DNA from: Roseiflexus sp.
Lineage (GTDB): Bacteria; Chloroflexota; Chloroflexia; Chloroflexales; Roseiflexaceae
Assembly (NCBI GenBank): GCA_017743475.1
Contig: JAGHYV010000054.1
Coordinates: 1 to 32,099 of the forward strand
Direction of reading: 5' to 3'
DNA length: 32,099 bases
The position numbers were made by a program, and so were the translations under genes. Below the pieces are notes generated by a model, which did not search any database, was not told the DNA's origin, and was given only the letters and a program-made list of their open reading frames with translations. Each line of letters opens with the position of its first letter. Position 1 is the first letter of the stretch. Shown here in pieces: positions 6,746-23,958 of the stretch.

Positions 6746-8746
6746 TTATGGCTTCATCGCTGCCAGCCAATTCAGTTTGGCGACGTTGATCGCCTGAGTG
6801 GAGGCAGGGAAGTAGCCGACATCGAGAATTTCGTCGTTGACGAAGGTCAGATAGAAGTTGATGAAGGCGGCGACCTGCGGCTTCTCCTTCATAATCTTGG
6901 CGTCGGAGTAGATGAAGAGCGGTCGCGCCAGCGGATACTCGCCGGTTTCGGCGGTCCTTTCAGTAGGTTCGACGCCTTCGACCTTCACCGCTTTGAGGCG
7001 ATCCTTCTCGGCGATGAAGTAGGCGTAGCCGAAGTAGCCGATGGCGTTGGGGTCGCCTTCCACGCCCTGCACCAGCACGTTGTCGTTCTCGCTCAACTGA
7101 ATGCCGGGAGCGTTCAGGATGGCTTCCTTGCCCTTCTTCTCAAACGCCGGGTCCATCACCACTTCGACGAAGAAGTCGAAGGTGCCGGAGTCGGAGCCGG
7201 GGCTGAAGAGTTTGATCGGATTGGCGGGCCAGGCGGGGTTGACGTCCTTCCAGGTCTTGGCTTTGCCGGAGAAGATGTCGGCGAGTTGCGCCTTGGTCAG
7301 GCTGTCGACGAAGGTGTTGGCCGGGTTGACGACCACCGCCAGGGCGTCGGTGCCGACGCGGAACTCGACCGGCTCGCGTCCGATGGCGCGGCAGTTTTCG
7401 ACTTCGGCAGGGCGGATGGGGCGGCTGGCGTTGGAGATGTCGGTTTCGCCCGCCTTGCAGAAGCGCTCGAACCCGGCGCCGGTGCCGATCGAGTCAATCG
7501 TGATGTTACCAGCGTAACCCTCGTCCTTGAAGCGCTCCGCCATCCGCTGGGTCAGCGGGAAGACCGTCGATGACCCGGCGGTGACGATGTTCCCCGTTAC
7601 TGCTCCCGGATCGACTTCAGGCATCTTGACTTCCATTCCCATCGCTGCCAGCCAGTTTGCCTTGGCAACGTTGAGCGCCTGCTGGGAAGCAGGGAAGTAG
7701 CCGACATCGAGAATTTCGTCGTTGACGAAGGTCAGATAGAAGTTGATGAAGGCGGCGACCTGCGGCTTCTCCTTCATAATCTTGGCGTCGGAGTAGATGA
7801 AGAGCGGTCGCGCCAGCGGATACTCGCCGGTTTCGGCGGTCCTTTCAGTAGGTTCGACGCCTTCGACCTTCACCGCTTTGAGGCGATCCTTCTCGGCGAT
7901 GAAGTAGGCGTAGCCGAAGTAGCCGATGGCGTTGGGGTCGCCTTCCACGCCCTGCACCAGCACGTTGTCGTTCTCGCTCAACTGAATGCCGGGAGCGTTC
8001 AGGATGGCTTCCTTGCCCTTCTTCTCAAACGCCGGGTCCATCACCACTTCGACGAAGAAGTCGAAGGTGCCGGAGTCGGAGCCGGGGCTGAAGAGTTTGA
8101 TCGGATTGGCGGGCCAGGCGGGGTTGACGTCCTTCCAGGTCTTGGCTTTGCCGGAGAAGATGTCGGCGAGTTGCGCCTTGGTCAGGCTGTCGACGAAGGT
8201 GTTGGCCGGGTTGACGACCACCGCCAGGGCGTCGGTGCCGACGCGGAACTCGACCGGCTCGCGTCCGATGGCGCGGCAGTTTTCGACTTCGGCAGGGCGG
8301 ATGGGGCGGCTGGCGTTGGAGATGTCGGTTTCGCCCGCCTTGCAGAAGCGCTCGAACCCGGCGCCGGTGCCGATCGAGTCAATCGTGATGTTACCAGCGT
8401 AACCCTCGTCCTTGAAGCGCTCCGCCATCCGCTGGGTCAGCGGGAAGACCGTCGATGACCCGGCGGTGACGATATTCCCCGTTACTGCTCCCGGATCGAC
8501 GTCGGGAAGACCATCGTAATCGATCTCCGCCGCCGGTTCGGCAGTCGGTTGCGTGGGCGCGGCGGTCGGTTGCGCGGGCGCGGCGGTCGGTTGTCCTGGC
8601 GCCGGGGTTGCTTCCGCGGGCGCGGCGGTCGGTTGCGCGGGCGCGGCGGTCGGTTGCGCGGTCTGACCGCCACAGGCTGCGATGATCGGTGCAATCAGCG
8701 CCAGCATCAACAGCGACGCGAAAAACCGTTTCCTGATGATGTGCAT
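6746..8746 (-). CDS. pstS: Two-domain tandem-fused phosphate-binding lipoprotein PstS (copy 2)
   Basis: Phosphate-binding subunit, 666 residues, about twice the family's usual 300-370. Residues 1-25 are a lipoprotein signal ending in IIAAC, so Cys25 should carry the lipid anchor. Residues 29-70 are a Pro/Thr/Ala linker of QPTAAPA heptamers. Two complete PstS domains follow, about 82-376 and 377-666. Each starts VDPGAVTGN, carries the phosphate-binding loop AGSSTVFPLTQRMAE and SPGSDSGTFDFF, and they differ only in the last 20-25 residues. The DNA is duplicated with an 885-base period. The GGAGGGAG ribosome site is 6 bases before the ATG. A candidate Pho box lies upstream. It is unlike PstS1 at 871-2112. 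Both domains keep the phosphate-contacting residues I can recognise, so both may bind ligand. Confidence 0.95.
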   Translation of the reverse strand: MHIIRKRFFASLLMLALIAPIIAACGGQTAQPTAAPAQPTAAPAEATPAPGQPTAAPAQPTAAPTQPTAEPAAEIDYDGLPDVDPGAVTGNIVTAGSSTVFPLTQRMAERFKDEGYAGNITIDSIGTGAGFERFCKAGETDISNASRPIRPAEVENCRAIGREPVEFRVGTDALAVVVNPANTFVDSLTKAQLADIFSGKAKTWKDVNPAWPANPIKLFSPGSDSGTFDFFVEVVMDPAFEKKGKEAILNAPGIQLSENDNVLVQGVEGDPNAIGYFGYAYFIAEKDRLKAVKVEGVEPTERTAETGEYPLARPLFIYSDAKIMKEKPQVAAFINFYLTFVNDEILDVGYFPASQQALNVAKANWLAAMGMEVKMPEVDPGAVTGNIVTAGSSTVFPLTQRMAERFKDEGYAGNITIDSIGTGAGFERFCKAGETDISNASRPIRPAEVENCRAIGREPVEFRVGTDALAVVVNPANTFVDSLTKAQLADIFSGKAKTWKDVNPAWPANPIKLFSPGSDSGTFDFFVEVVMDPAFEKKGKEAILNAPGIQLSENDNVLVQGVEGDPNAIGYFGYAYFIAEKDRLKAVKVEGVEPTERTAETGEYPLARPLFIYSDAKIMKEKPQVAAFINFYLTFVNDEILDVGYFPASTQAINVAKLNWLAAMKP
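6804..7615. repeat. Near-perfect direct repeat inside pstS2, copy encoding domain 2
   Basis: 812 bases matching 7689-8500 with one difference that I found (7589 versus 8474), which is synonymous (AAC/AAT, Asn). Identity stops sharply at both ends, where the flanking coding sequence diverges. The offset is exactly 885 bases (295 codons), so the frame is kept. Confidence 0.95.
7689..8500. repeat. Near-perfect direct repeat inside pstS2, copy encoding domain 1
   Basis: Partner of 6804-7615, offset 885 bases. Divergent flanks around a near-identical core suggest either recent duplication or continuing gene conversion restricted to the core. Confidence 0.95.
8540..8661. repeat. 21-base coding repeats for the QPTAAPA linker of PstS2
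   Basis: Several copies of a 21-base unit containing GGTTGCGCGGGCGCGGCG occur in tandem, in frame with pstS2, giving the heptapeptide QPTAAPA on the minus strand. Such units expand and contract easily, so linker length probably varies between strains. Confidence 0.8.
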
Positions 8747-19269: not shown

Positions 19270-20493
19270 ATGGCAATGCGTATCCCAATGTCTTCCCCCG
19301 ATATCAGCGATGCAGAAGTGCAGGCTGTCGTTGAGACGCTGCATACCCCGACGTTGAGTATCGGTCCGCGCCTCGAGGCGTTTGAACGTGCCGCTGCTGC
19401 TGTTGCTGGCGTTGAGTGGGGCATCGGTGTCAATTCTGGCACAAGCGGGCTACATCTGTGCATTATCGCTGCCGAGATCAGTGATGGCGATATGGTTGTT
19501 ACCACGCCGTTCTCGTTCATTGCCTCAGCGAACTGCATCCTGTATGAGCGCGGCGTGCCGGTGTTCGTGGATGTTGACCCGGCGACAGGGAATATCGACC
19601 CGCATCTGGTTGCATCTGCCGCTGCCGATCTGATGCGCGGCGGCGTGAGCGCTGATCGCTGGTTGCCGCCTGCCCTGCGCGGCATCCGCCGACCCGAAGG
19701 ACGATTACGCGCATTGCTGCCAGTGCACGCCTTTGGTCAGCCCGCCGATATGGACCCATTGCTCGACACTGCTCGCAATGCCGATCTGGTAGTGATTGAA
19801 GATGCGTGTGAGGCGATTGGCGCCGCATACAAAGGGCGACCCGCGGGATCGCTTGGCGATGCAGCCGTCTTTGCCTTTTATCCGAACAAACAGGTCACCA
19901 CCGGCGAGGGGGGCATGATTGTGACCAACCGCGAATCATGGGCGCATCTGTTGCGCAGTCTGCGCAATCAGGGGCGTGATGTCTTCGATGGCTGGCTCAA
20001 CCACACACGCCTGGGGTACAACTATCGCCTGGATGAACTGAGTGCCGCCCTTGGTCTGGTGCAGGTGAGTCGTCTGGAACAATTACTGGCGAAACGTGCT
20101 CGCGTCGCCGCCTGGTACAACGAACGACTGGCGGATCTAGAGCTGGTCGAGACACCGCGTATTGCGCCGACAACCACCTATATGTCGTGGTTTGTCTACG
20201 TGGTGCGCATTGTGCCGCCTGCCCGACGTGATACGGTGGTGCATCTGCTTGCAGAGCGCGGCATTCCTAGCCGCCCGTATTTCACTCCCATTCACCTGCA
20301 ACCGTTCTACCGTGAGCGGTTTGGTTACCGCGGCGGTGAGTTTCCGGTCACCGAGCATTTGGGTGCAGTGTCGCTTGCGCTGCCATTCTCAGGAGTAATG
20401 ACCGAAACACAGGTTGATGTGGTGTGTGAGGCGCTGCGCGATGCTGTCGAGCGCAGCATCGCACTGCCGGTGACCAGAGGAGCATCACGATGA
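19270..20493 (+). CDS. DegT/DnrJ/EryC1/StrS-family sugar aminotransferase
   Basis: PLP-dependent enzyme that adds an amino group to a nucleotide-linked keto sugar, 407 residues. The cofactor Lys is K207 in FAFYPNKQVTTGEGG, with the ring-binding Asp in VVIEDACEAIGA (about 178). NSGTSGLHL (55-63) binds the phosphate, and RLGYNYRLDELSAALGL marks the second-subunit segment. GAGGAG stands about 9 bases before the ATG; an in-frame ATG at 19276 is possible. It is first of five genes and overlaps the following dehydratase gene by four bases. The pair (4,6-dehydratase plus aminotransferase) is what is needed to make a 4-amino-4,6-dideoxy sugar such as a bacillosamine precursor. Confidence 0.93.
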   Translation: MAMRIPMSSPDISDAEVQAVVETLHTPTLSIGPRLEAFERAAAAVAGVEWGIGVNSGTSGLHLCIIAAEISDGDMVVTTPFSFIASANCILYERGVPVFVDVDPATGNIDPHLVASAAADLMRGGVSADRWLPPALRGIRRPEGRLRALLPVHAFGQPADMDPLLDTARNADLVVIEDACEAIGAAYKGRPAGSLGDAAVFAFYPNKQVTTGEGGMIVTNRESWAHLLRSLRNQGRDVFDGWLNHTRLGYNYRLDELSAALGLVQVSRLEQLLAKRARVAAWYNERLADLELVETPRIAPTTTYMSWFVYVVRIVPPARRDTVVHLLAERGIPSRPYFTPIHLQPFYRERFGYRGGEFPVTEHLGAVSLALPFSGVMTETQVDVVCEALRDAVERSIALPVTRGASR

Positions 20494-22439
20494 TGCAGCG
20501 ACTTCAAAACCGGCATTTTCTCCTTTTCGATATCCTGCTGGTGCCGCTTGCAATCTATCTGAGTTTCGTCCTACGGCTGGAAATGTTCGATCTCCGCAGT
20601 TACTGGCAAGCATGCGTACAGTTCTGCCTGACAGCGGTCGTGATCACCCCACTGGCGTTTCGTGCACTGGGGATCTACCGTCGCTACTGGCGCTACGCTT
20701 CGTTTGAAGAACTGCTGCTGCTCTGTAGTGCAACATCGATTGCGCTGGCGCTTGCCACGCTTGTGTTTACCCTGATCGACGCGCTCTTGCCAATGGTGGC
20801 AACGATGCCGCGCTCCATTCCTTTCATCGTGCCGCCTATTGCAGCCACGCTCGTCAGTGTGCCGCGGTTGCTGGTGCGCATCGGTGCAGCGCGCGAGCGT
20901 CGGCGTCGTGCAACCGACCGACCGGCACCGGTATTGATCATGGGCGCTGGCGATGCTGCGTCGATTATTGTACGCGAGATTCAGCGCAATCCAAAACTCG
21001 GTATGGAAGTCGTCGGGCTGCTAGACGACGATCCGGCGAAGCATGGGCTGCGGTTGCATGGCGTCGAAGTGATGGGTGACCGCCACGCTATTCCAGCGCT
21101 CGTAGCTCGCCACAAGGTGCGTCAGGTGATCATTGCGATGCCAGGCGCACCCGGTAAGGCGGTGCGCGAGATTATGCATATTTGCGAATCCGTTGGTGTG
21201 GCGGTGCGCATCATGCCTGGCGTTCACGAACTGATCGATGGGACGATCAGCGTCAGCAAACTGCGCAACATCCAGATCGAGGACCTGCTACGCCGTGCGC
21301 CAGTGCAAACCGATACCGCTGCAGTGCGTGCACTGGTCGCCAACCGACGGGTCCTGGTAACCGGCGGCGGCGGCTCTATCGGTAGCGAACTATGCCGTCA
21401 GTTGATCCGCTTCGGTCCATCGCACCTGATCGTGCTCGGTCATGGCGAAAACAGTGTGTTCGAGATCTGCAACGAACTTCAGCGCCCGGCAGAAGCGCAC
21501 GCCGATCAATCGCCGCGCATTGTGCCGGTGATCGCCGATATTCGCGATCTGGATCGCCTGCGCGCAGTGTTCGAAGCGCATGCGCCCGAACTCGTTTTTC
21601 ACGCAGCCGCGCACAAACATGTTCCGCTGATGGAGGAACATCCGGTTGAAGCCATCAGCAACAATGTCATCGGTACGCGCAACCTGCTTGACGTATCACT
21701 GGAAACCGGCATTGAACGGTTTGTGATGATCTCATCGGATAAGGCAGTCAACCCGACGAGCGTTATGGGCGCAACCAAGCGCATCGCCGAGATGCTGGTG
21801 CTCCACACTGCGCGGATCAGCGGACGACCCTACGTGGCGGTGCGTTTTGGAAACGTGCTAGGCAGTCGTGGCAGTGTCGTGCTGACCTTCAAACGGCAGA
21901 TTGCCGCTGGTGGACCGGTAACGGTCACACATCCGGAGATGCGTCGCTACTTCATGACCATTCCCGAAGCAGTGCAACTGGTACTCCAGGCGTCGGTACT
22001 GGGTCACGCTGGCGAGATTTTCATGCTCGACATGGGGGAACCTGTGAAGGTGGTCGATCTGGCGCGTGACATGATCCGTCTGTCGGGGTTGGAGGTCGGG
22101 CGTGATATTGATATCTGCTTTACCGGCATACGTCCGGGTGAGAAATTATTTGAAGAATTGTTCGCCCACGGCGAAGAATATCAGCCAACAGCGCACAGCA
22201 AAATCTTTGTTGCCGCTGGTGCCAGCAACAATATTCCGCCTGACTTGCGTGCGGATGTGGCACTGCTCGAACAGATTGCACGCACGAACGACGATGCTGC
22301 TGCACGACGCATGCTGCGCCACATCGTCCCGGAGTACTGTCCGCCATTGCCTGCCCCGCCGATACCCGTCGCCGAAAACGCGTCCTATGCTGTGCTGGTG
22401 CGTCCGTTGCAACCCCTGATCGAGGGTGGACGAAGATGA
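20490..22439 (+). CDS. Membrane-bound nucleotide-sugar 4,6-dehydratase/epimerase (CapD/FlaA1/PglF type)
   Basis: Large polysaccharide or glycan biosynthesis enzyme, 649 residues. Four N-terminal membrane helices (about 11-30, 43-62, 75-98, 108-127) include the family segment GIYRRYWRYAS. A CoA-binding-like Rossmann domain (VLIMGAGDAASIIVREI, from 148) follows. The catalytic extended-SDR domain starts VLVTGGGGSIGSE (288-300). The catalytic region ISSDKAVNPTSVMGATKR (414-431) has the family pattern with Lys418 and Met426, in place of the classic YxxxK. PglF, WbpM and CapD are relatives that act on UDP-GlcNAc, but the exact sugar cannot be read here. Its start and stop both sit in ATGA overlaps with the flanking genes. 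Confidence 0.93.
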   Translation: MMQRLQNRHFLLFDILLVPLAIYLSFVLRLEMFDLRSYWQACVQFCLTAVVITPLAFRALGIYRRYWRYASFEELLLLCSATSIALALATLVFTLIDALLPMVATMPRSIPFIVPPIAATLVSVPRLLVRIGAARERRRRATDRPAPVLIMGAGDAASIIVREIQRNPKLGMEVVGLLDDDPAKHGLRLHGVEVMGDRHAIPALVARHKVRQVIIAMPGAPGKAVREIMHICESVGVAVRIMPGVHELIDGTISVSKLRNIQIEDLLRRAPVQTDTAAVRALVANRRVLVTGGGGSIGSELCRQLIRFGPSHLIVLGHGENSVFEICNELQRPAEAHADQSPRIVPVIADIRDLDRLRAVFEAHAPELVFHAAAHKHVPLMEEHPVEAISNNVIGTRNLLDVSLETGIERFVMISSDKAVNPTSVMGATKRIAEMLVLHTARISGRPYVAVRFGNVLGSRGSVVLTFKRQIAAGGPVTVTHPEMRRYFMTIPEAVQLVLQASVLGHAGEIFMLDMGEPVKVVDLARDMIRLSGLEVGRDIDICFTGIRPGEKLFEELFAHGEEYQPTAHSKIFVAAGASNNIPPDLRADVALLEQIARTNDDAAARRMLRHIVPEYCPPLPAPPIPVAENASYAVLVRPLQPLIEGGRR

Positions 22440-23413
22440 GCAATATGATGGTCAATACGCCCGTGCTAGACAACACTGACGTCCATCTGATGCACAGCGA
22501 ATGTCTGCCACAGGGTGCATCGCTACCGGTTGAACCGCTGCTGACGCTGGCTGCCACATCGCCGACAGCAGCGGCGGAACTGGCGCAACAGTATGTCACC
22601 GCGGTTGATGCTGTTCGACTGTCGACCGATCTGGAAACTGCCATTGAACTCCTGATGCGCGTAACGGACGTGTGCGTCGGAACGCTAGGCGAAACCCACC
22701 CGGCGATAGGTGCACTGCGCTGCCGGTTAGGCGATCTGTTGCTGGCAGAGCGACGCCTGGAACAGGCGCGGCAGCAGTACGAAATCGTGCTGGCAGCGCA
22801 CCGTCCCAGTGTGTTCGGCGATAGCGACGCTATTGCCCGCGCTCTCAGCGGTCTGGGAGATGTGCTGCGCACCGAACGCAAATATGTTGCAGCGCTAATA
22901 TGTCTGCAACGAGCGCTGCGGCGCCAGTCTGAAGCGCACGGCGTCCACCCTGCGACCGCGCAGACGCACACCCGTCTCGGCGCGCTCTGGTTCGAGCAGC
23001 AACGCTACGCTACGGCACGGCTTCACTTCCAGGAAGCGCTGGCAATCCGCGAAGCGACCCTGGGACCGCGCGATCCGGCAACTGCCCAGAGTCTGCATAA
23101 CCTCGGCATCACGCTGGTGGCGCTTGGTGATCTGTGGAGTGCGCGGGTATGCCTAGCGCAGGCGCTGGCGATCCGCGAGGATCGGTTGGGGCGTACCCAT
23201 CTGGCGACGGCGCAAAGCCTGGAGGCGCTCAGTCGTGTGCTGGCGGATCTTGGTGATGACGAGAGCGCACAGTACTGTCTCGAGCGCGCCGCCGCGCTCT
23301 ATCGTCAACATTCAGGGGACGATCGTCCAGCCAGTGCTGCGTTTGCAGTGCAGGTGAATCATCGGCGGCGCGGCGGCGCGCGCTGGATGAGTCTGTTGCG
23401 GAGGGGATCATGA
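22436..23413 (+). CDS. Tetratricopeptide-repeat protein
   Basis: 325 residues, no signal peptide or membrane helix seen. From about residue 75 to 285 it is built of roughly five 42-residue kinesin-light-chain-type TPRs. Examples are LGALWFEQQRYATARLHFQEALAIREATLGPRDPATAQSL (split here only by repeat boundaries) and LGITLVALGDLWSARVCLAQALAIRE. Such repeats are protein-protein docking surfaces. The C-terminus is basic (NHRRRGGARW, ending LLRRGS). It sits between the dehydratase and the small secreted protein in the five-gene operon, with ATGA overlaps on both sides. A scaffold that connects the glycan and sortase branches is plausible but unproven. Confidence 0.85.
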   Translation: MSNMMVNTPVLDNTDVHLMHSECLPQGASLPVEPLLTLAATSPTAAAELAQQYVTAVDAVRLSTDLETAIELLMRVTDVCVGTLGETHPAIGALRCRLGDLLLAERRLEQARQQYEIVLAAHRPSVFGDSDAIARALSGLGDVLRTERKYVAALICLQRALRRQSEAHGVHPATAQTHTRLGALWFEQQRYATARLHFQEALAIREATLGPRDPATAQSLHNLGITLVALGDLWSARVCLAQALAIREDRLGRTHLATAQSLEALSRVLADLGDDESAQYCLERAAALYRQHSGDDRPASAAFAVQVNHRRRGGARWMSLLRRGS

Positions 23414-23958
23414 AACGTATCTCAGCAGTGCGCATTGGGCTGTTTCTGGCGCTCTGCCTGCTTTTCAGCAGCGCAGTGGCGGAAGAACGCCCGACAACTG
23501 TGTCGCTGTCAACTGAACTATTAACCGTACTGGCAGATGTCGAAGGGCTGGGTCATCGTATGACCGGGGTCTACATCATTCGCCGCGCAACCGATGGCAG
23601 CGGCAGGGTATTCTGGAGATTCCGCGGCATGCTCGACGGTGAGTTCGAGGAGGTCGATGGCGAAGCGTTCGAGCGCTGGTCGCTCGATGGTGACGTGACG
23701 GTTGAGTTGACGAAGTTCAATTATCCAAATTTCACGCTTGATAAGTTGCCTGCACGTCGTATGACCCTGATGCCGGGTTGGGATGGGTTGATTGTGATCG
23801 CTGGCGTGCCGCTGGCAGTCAAGGGTGAATTCAAAGCACCGACAGCAGGCAGTTCGCCGGTGCTGGTGGTGACCAATGCCGGTCGTGGTGCGCGCGTTAT
23901 TACTGAACTGCCGAATACAGCGGGATCGCCTAATCTGGAAGGAGTACAGCAGCCATGA
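23410..23958 (+). CDS. Small secreted protein with C-terminal LPNTAG motif, putative sortase substrate
   Basis: 182 residues; I do not recognise the domain. Residues 1-24 are a clear signal peptide (MKRIS, hydrophobic core, then SSAVA before EE), giving a mature protein of about 158 residues. The mature part is rich in alternating hydrophobic/charged stretches that suggest beta strands (RVFWRFRGMLDGEFEEVDGE, later GLIVIAGVPLAVKGEF). Residues 167-172 are LPNTAG, matching the LPNTA recognition sequence described for class D-type sortases, and a sortase gene overlaps its stop codon. The usual hydrophobic helix and basic tail after the motif are missing; only ten residues follow. It has no cysteines in the mature region that I can see. 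Chance occurrence of the motif cannot be excluded. Confidence 0.75.
   Translation: MKRISAVRIGLFLALCLLFSSAVAEERPTTVSLSTELLTVLADVEGLGHRMTGVYIIRRATDGSGRVFWRFRGMLDGEFEEVDGEAFERWSLDGDVTVELTKFNYPNFTLDKLPARRMTLMPGWDGLIVIAGVPLAVKGEFKAPTAGSSPVLVVTNAGRGARVITELPNTAGSPNLEGVQQP

Follow-up and report, generated by a model that had tools for sequence, protein, structure and literature searches.

The window analysed here is a stretch of 32,099 nucleotides from a genome of the hot-spring bacterium Roseiflexus (contig JAGHYV010000054.1 of assembly GCA_017743475.1). In it, a gene for a small secreted protein (23410-23958) is followed by a gene for a sortase, and the small protein carries a sortase motif near its carboxyterminal end with no hydrophobic segment behind it. 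Our analysis suggests that the small protein is probably a dedicated, anchor-free substrate of the sortase that is encoded directly behind it. In textbook sortase sorting, a membrane anchor is needed behind the motif.

A conserved sortase motif without an anchor

An earlier note on this DNA had drawn attention to the sequence LPNTAG (starting at 23908) close to the carboxyterminal end, followed by just ten residues and no anchor. Both observations hold. The protein ends with ...GRGARVITELPNTAGSPNLEGVQQP, and its TGA stop codon occupies positions 23956-23958. Within the last 60 residues, the best 17-residue Kyte-Doolittle mean is 1.39, compared with 2.2 for the signal peptide of the same protein and 2.7 for the aminoterminal helix of the sortase, and there is no transmembrane-like segment. 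The canonical definition of an LPXTG cell-wall-anchored protein combines the motif with a hydrophobic helix and a basic tail; here the motif is found, the hydrophobic segment is seen in 0/5 orthologs, and the PF00746 profile (Gram_pos_anchor type) does not match the small protein. In the other reading frames behind LPNTAG, the sole hydrophobic stretch is the aminoterminal helix of the sortase, in the sortase frame. The sortase start (23955) shares four base pairs (bp), ATGA, with the stop of the small protein gene, and an overlap of this type occurs in three of the five orthologous loci, with gaps of about 107 bp in genome G004 and 12 bp in genome G009. A hidden anchor, created by a frameshift fusion into the sortase helix, was ruled out, as the overlap is missing in these two.

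Orthologs of the small protein were found in four Roseiflexus genomes, including that of the window, and in one sister genus. A search of 158 genomes of the class and of the GTDB contig collection revealed no others, the remaining hits being noise. Profile searches with the small protein against Pfam and NCBIfam gave zero matches, and a sequence search of the PDB gave nothing better than E 0.26. The four other orthologs are 89% (G002, same genus), 66%, 64% and 53% identical to the window protein, and end in LPNTAGSPDREGAQQP, LPDTSDPPVKQGEQHQ, LPNTSAPPGANRMSSH and LPNTAGPPGYGKGFRAK. Loss of the motif from orthologs next to the sortase had been named in the earlier note as the result that would speak against the idea, but all five keep LPxT[A/S], 16-17 residues ahead of the stop (LPNTA, LPNTA, LPDTS, LPNTS, LPNTA). 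L, P and T are fixed; the variable position holds N or D, and the fifth A or S. The codons of the three fixed residues vary synonymously (CTG/TTG for leucine, CCG/CCA for proline, ACA/ACC for threonine). As the motif is kept in 5/5 orthologs through such synonymous changes, LPNTA is, by this codon evidence, more than chance.

In pairwise codon comparisons among the five orthologs, the non-synonymous share is 20% for LPNTA, 27% for the domain, 62% for the signal peptide and 71% for the tail, the fastest-changing part of the protein. Because of the difference between motif and tail, purifying selection appears to stop at the motif, a conclusion that is good, if not overwhelming, with five sequences. 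At such a high rate of change, the tail was also rejected as an element conserved for its function; in the window, its codons hold the sequence AAGGAG and so double as the likely ribosome-binding site of the sortase gene.

A motif of this kind is insufficient evidence on its own, because AMP-ligases have a look-alike carboxyterminal end (LPKTATGK...) that is coincidental. It has therefore to be asked whether LPNTA is a chance sequence or a relic where the last strand ends, and whether the sortase serves anchored proteins elsewhere and is merely the operon-mate of an unrelated secreted protein. The small number and fairly close relationship of the orthologs, the existence of several Chloroflexia sortases with no obvious adjoining substrate, the AMP-ligase precedent, and the overlap of the window tail with the likely ribosome-binding site all speak for this explanation. 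We nevertheless regard it as unlikely. Among 504 open reading frames (ORFs), taken from the surroundings of Chloroflexia sortases and from the window, LPxT[AGS] occurs with a frequency of 1.9e-4 per residue, so that about 0.004 matches are expected per 25-residue carboxyterminal end, and none of the 504 has the motif in its last 25 residues. L, P and T are retained through synonymous codon change while the flanks are not, the variation seen among the orthologs (N/D and A/S) is of the kind that sortases tolerate, and the motif persists in G004 and G009, where the constraint from the ribosome-binding site is absent. Inspection of 30 of the 51 sites with the patterns LPNTA, LPDTA or LPDTS elsewhere in the genome turned up no other convincing carboxyterminal motif of a secreted protein.

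The sortase

The window sortase has an aminoterminal membrane helix (within residues 7-45), a linker rich in proline and threonine, and a catalytic domain. H147, C207 (in TLxTC) and R221 are invariant in the alignment, so that the enzyme shows the catalytic His, Cys and Arg and the membrane helix of the PF04203 sortase family. Its assignment to a class is less straightforward. The NCBIfam class scores are all below the cut-offs (E 59.2/160, C 52.8/160, F 43.7/166, D 40.8/165), and only the cut-off of the general model TIGR01076 is passed, which places the enzyme outside the named classes C, D, E, F and GN. According to AlphaFold2 and Foldseek, the nearest folds are those of class C and E sortases (best E 3.8e-11). 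When 70 Chloroflexia sortases are placed in a tree, the five found next to the small protein group together as a single clade (100/100), which has a long branch and no other members. As the clade is isolated, a transfer of specificity from related sortases was dropped.

Class C sortases are controlled by lid segments. Since such sortases are among the nearest folds, the small protein might be a partner or regulator of the enzyme, with the LPxT tail acting as a pseudosubstrate in the active site or the protein aiding folding or localisation, and the true substrate encoded elsewhere. One-to-one co-occurrence, tight linkage and the missing anchor would also fit this role. In a pseudosubstrate, however, one would expect the scissile Thr-[A/S] bond to be lost or the protein to be linked to the enzyme, when in fact threonine and a small residue behind it are kept, and a separate pseudosubstrate protein has no precedent in the literature searched. 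We consider a regulatory role quite improbable.

It is more improbable still that an uncleaved aminoterminal signal anchor holds the substrate in the membrane in place of a carboxyterminal one: the aminoterminal stretch is, by hydropathy, the only strong hydrophobic one in the protein, but it is followed in 5/5 orthologs by a cleavage site of the A-x-A, S-x-A or V-S-A type (AVA, AMA, ASA, VSA, AHA, judged by eye), the signal region changes fast, and there is no lipobox cysteine in the protein.

A model for anchor-free sorting

Returning to the small protein as a dedicated substrate, we suggest the following model. Judging by the signal sequence, the protein would leave the cytoplasm through the Sec pathway and lose its signal peptide. 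The carboxyterminal end, predicted to be disordered, would then bring LPNTA within reach of the active site of the sortase in the membrane, which would cut the Thr-Ala bond and free the twelve residues AGSPNLEGVQQP; the peptide ITELPNTAGSPN should accordingly be cuttable by the window sortase. The threonyl enzyme intermediate would presumably be passed to an amino group at the surface, either of a wall peptide or of another copy of the protein. Capture without a membrane anchor would depend on two things, direct binding by the enzyme and joint expression of both genes in one operon; some substrate molecules would probably escape into the medium, as happens with AbpA, the streptococcal protein compared below.

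Several points weigh against the model. Known sortase substrates are nearly always anchored. There are just five orthologs, and about half of all alignment columns are invariant, so that three conserved residues are modest evidence when taken alone. The sortase clade has no relative with known specificity, and recognition of LPxT[A/S] can thus not be deduced from its kin. The predicted structure of the substrate is of too low a quality to demonstrate an exposed tail: AlphaFold2 gives a mean predicted local distance difference test score (pLDDT) of 50, with about 32 in the tail, and this low-confidence model contains strands only past the signal helix.

If the dedicated-substrate model is true, there would be a second, unrelated lineage that shows the anchor to be dispensable in nature beyond streptococci. 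The pair would offer a compact and probably heat-stable enzyme-substrate system for testing what replaces retention, possibly with a use in protein ligation, given the soluble natural substrate, and would give an initial clue, LPxT[A/S], to what sortases recognise in the little-studied Chloroflexota. A more far-reaching proposition, to which we give little credence as a whole, is that anchor-free sorting evolved independently in Chloroflexota, that the exported substrate is fully soluble and is captured by a sortase that belongs to none of the named classes, and that the acceptor is possibly something other than peptidoglycan, for example an amino sugar in a polysaccharide of the cell surface. 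The idea of a non-peptidoglycan acceptor comes from the nucleotide-sugar genes at the beginning of the operon.

Operon and surroundings

Four genes follow each other with successive overlaps of 4 bp: those for an epimerase, a TPR protein, the small secreted protein and the sortase (Table 1). In 5/5 genomes, the small protein gene is directly upstream of the orthologous sortase gene. The earlier note had argued that the overlap of the two genes makes a chance association less likely, which we could not uphold, as neighbouring genes of the operon overlap likewise and two of the orthologous loci have no such overlap. By gene order in these genomes, it is the linkage between small protein and sortase that is conserved, not the overlap itself.

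Table 1. Genes of the operon and elements of the small secreted protein. Positions are those of the window, or residues where so stated.
Feature	Position	Strand	Evidence or remark
Polysaccharide-biosynthesis nucleotide-sugar epimerase/dehydratase	20490..22439	+	PF02719, E 1.4e-115; 4-bp overlap with TPR gene
TPR protein, 325 aa, operon partner	22436..23413	+	PF13424, E 3.5e-37; adjoins the pair in 5/5 genomes
Small secreted protein, 182 aa	23410..23958	+	ORF call
Signal peptide of small secreted protein	residues 1-24 or so		AVA/EE type cleavage site
Predicted beta-rich domain of small secreted protein	residues 37-156		
Predicted disordered tail of small secreted protein	residues 158-182		
LPNTAG, putative sortase recognition motif LPxT[A/S]	23908..23925	+	L, P, T invariant in 5/5 orthologs
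SPNLEGVQQP, polar non-conserved tail, ten residues	23926..23955	+	codon comparison among orthologs; sequence
Sortase, 238 aa	23955..24671	+	PF04203, E 1.9e-22; 79.7 bits vs cut-off 26.6

The suggestion that the TPR protein might aid recognition of the substrate also found no support. Hydropathy shows neither a recognisable signal peptide nor a membrane segment in the protein; it is probably cytoplasmic, and because it lacks an export signal, a role in recognition is unlikely. The TPR protein (22436-23413, plus strand) carries at its carboxyterminal end a stretch resembling RRGGARWMxLFRR that is kept in all orthologs.

In two further genomes, the small protein was not seen. In G001, where it is missing, only the catalytic part of the sortase is left, the aminoterminal part with the membrane helix being lost, a pattern as expected from joint decay of both genes. 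In G005, neither gene is seen, but the TPR gene breaks at a contig edge; this may be an assembly gap, and the genome was not used as evidence.

Elsewhere in the window, positions 6746-8746 (minus strand) encode a 666-residue PstS-like phosphate-binding protein in which the binding domain is present twice in tandem, with nearly identical copies, beside pst-type transporter genes. Short degenerate DNA repeats, with a translation that would run ...STFNLQ/STFNVQPST..., occur at more than one site of the genome (18921-19259 in the window and 1477-2049 of locus L054).

Other sortases of Chloroflexia

The window genome has five sortases. One of them, on contig C171 (locus L052, 5602-8520), adjoins a gene for a 659-residue DUF11-type protein that ends in LPATSTGVPLAGFALLGATLLARTWRLHRARSRI, that is, in LPATSTG followed by a hydrophobic helix and the basic sequence RLHRARSRI. 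The same combination of sortase and large protein is found in many Chloroflexia, with the motifs LPNTS, LPETS, LPDTS, LPATS and LPQTS, and may be the housekeeping sortase system of the class. About a dozen loci homologous to L052 were noted (for example L127, L149, L155, L176 and L178), with DUF11 in the one tested; in the Herpetosiphon version, the motif region reads ATNMG. The remaining three sortases of the genome (L053, L054, L055) have no obvious LPxT substrate adjoining, and in two of them ISCIGDK replaces the usual TLITC surroundings.

Judging by these predicted proteins, anchored LPxT[S] substrates are the rule in Chloroflexia, and the small protein has such a motif minus the anchor. 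Its variants LPNTS, LPDTS and LPNTA fit the group, as LPxT[S] is already used by Chloroflexia sortase substrates. No other anchor-free LPxT proteins were found next to the 60-odd Chloroflexia sortases sampled.

Comparison with known systems

One comparison is with the L052-type pair, which occurs in the same genome and class, and also has a sortase gene beside the gene for an LPxT[S] substrate. Its substrates, however, are about 440-820 residues long and have a hydrophobic helix and a basic tail, and its sortases form a separate, well-separated clade. The identical pentapeptide LPNTA has been proven to serve as a sortase site in BasH and BasI of Bacillus anthracis, the substrates of the class D sortase SrtC (PMC3208642). 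SrtC resembles the Roseiflexus enzyme in being an accessory sortase, but the latter scores well below the class D cut-off.

A precedent shown by experiment is AbpA of the oral streptococci S. parasanguinis and S. gordonii, which is encoded upstream of srtB, ends in LPKTS followed by AVK, and has no anchor (PMC4974636). Cleavage of AbpA takes place between T and S, its attachment to the wall requires SrtB, and some of the protein leaks into the medium; within the motif, L, P and T are essential, while the fifth position can vary freely (PMC4974636). This lessens the novelty implied in the earlier note: attachment of an anchor-free protein by a sortase had already been demonstrated with AbpA and SrtB (PMC4974636). 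In the open literature, we found experimental evidence for such sorting in oral streptococci only, although further cases may exist.

The two systems share a secreted protein encoded directly upstream of its own sortase gene, an LPxTS-type motif near the carboxyterminal end with L, P and T fixed, the x position partly free and the fifth residue free, the absence of a hydrophobic anchor, and confinement of the gene pair to one lineage. They differ in the tail, which has three residues (AVK) in AbpA and 10-12 variable ones in Roseiflexus, and in the substrate fold, AbpA combining a helical coiled coil with an alpha/beta part where a weak model predicts a beta-rich Roseiflexus protein that is not known to be related. 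SrtB belongs to class B, whereas the Roseiflexus sortase falls into no named class and has a predicted fold like those of classes C and E. The phyla are different, and AbpA sorting was shown by experiment where the Roseiflexus pair has been read from DNA. Signal peptide, near-carboxyterminal LPxT[S/A] without anchor, and adjacent, probably dedicated sortase would put the Roseiflexus protein with AbpA by way of working rather than by homology. By this analogy, the Roseiflexus pair most likely works like AbpA and SrtB, and it looks like an independent second case of the anchor-free arrangement.
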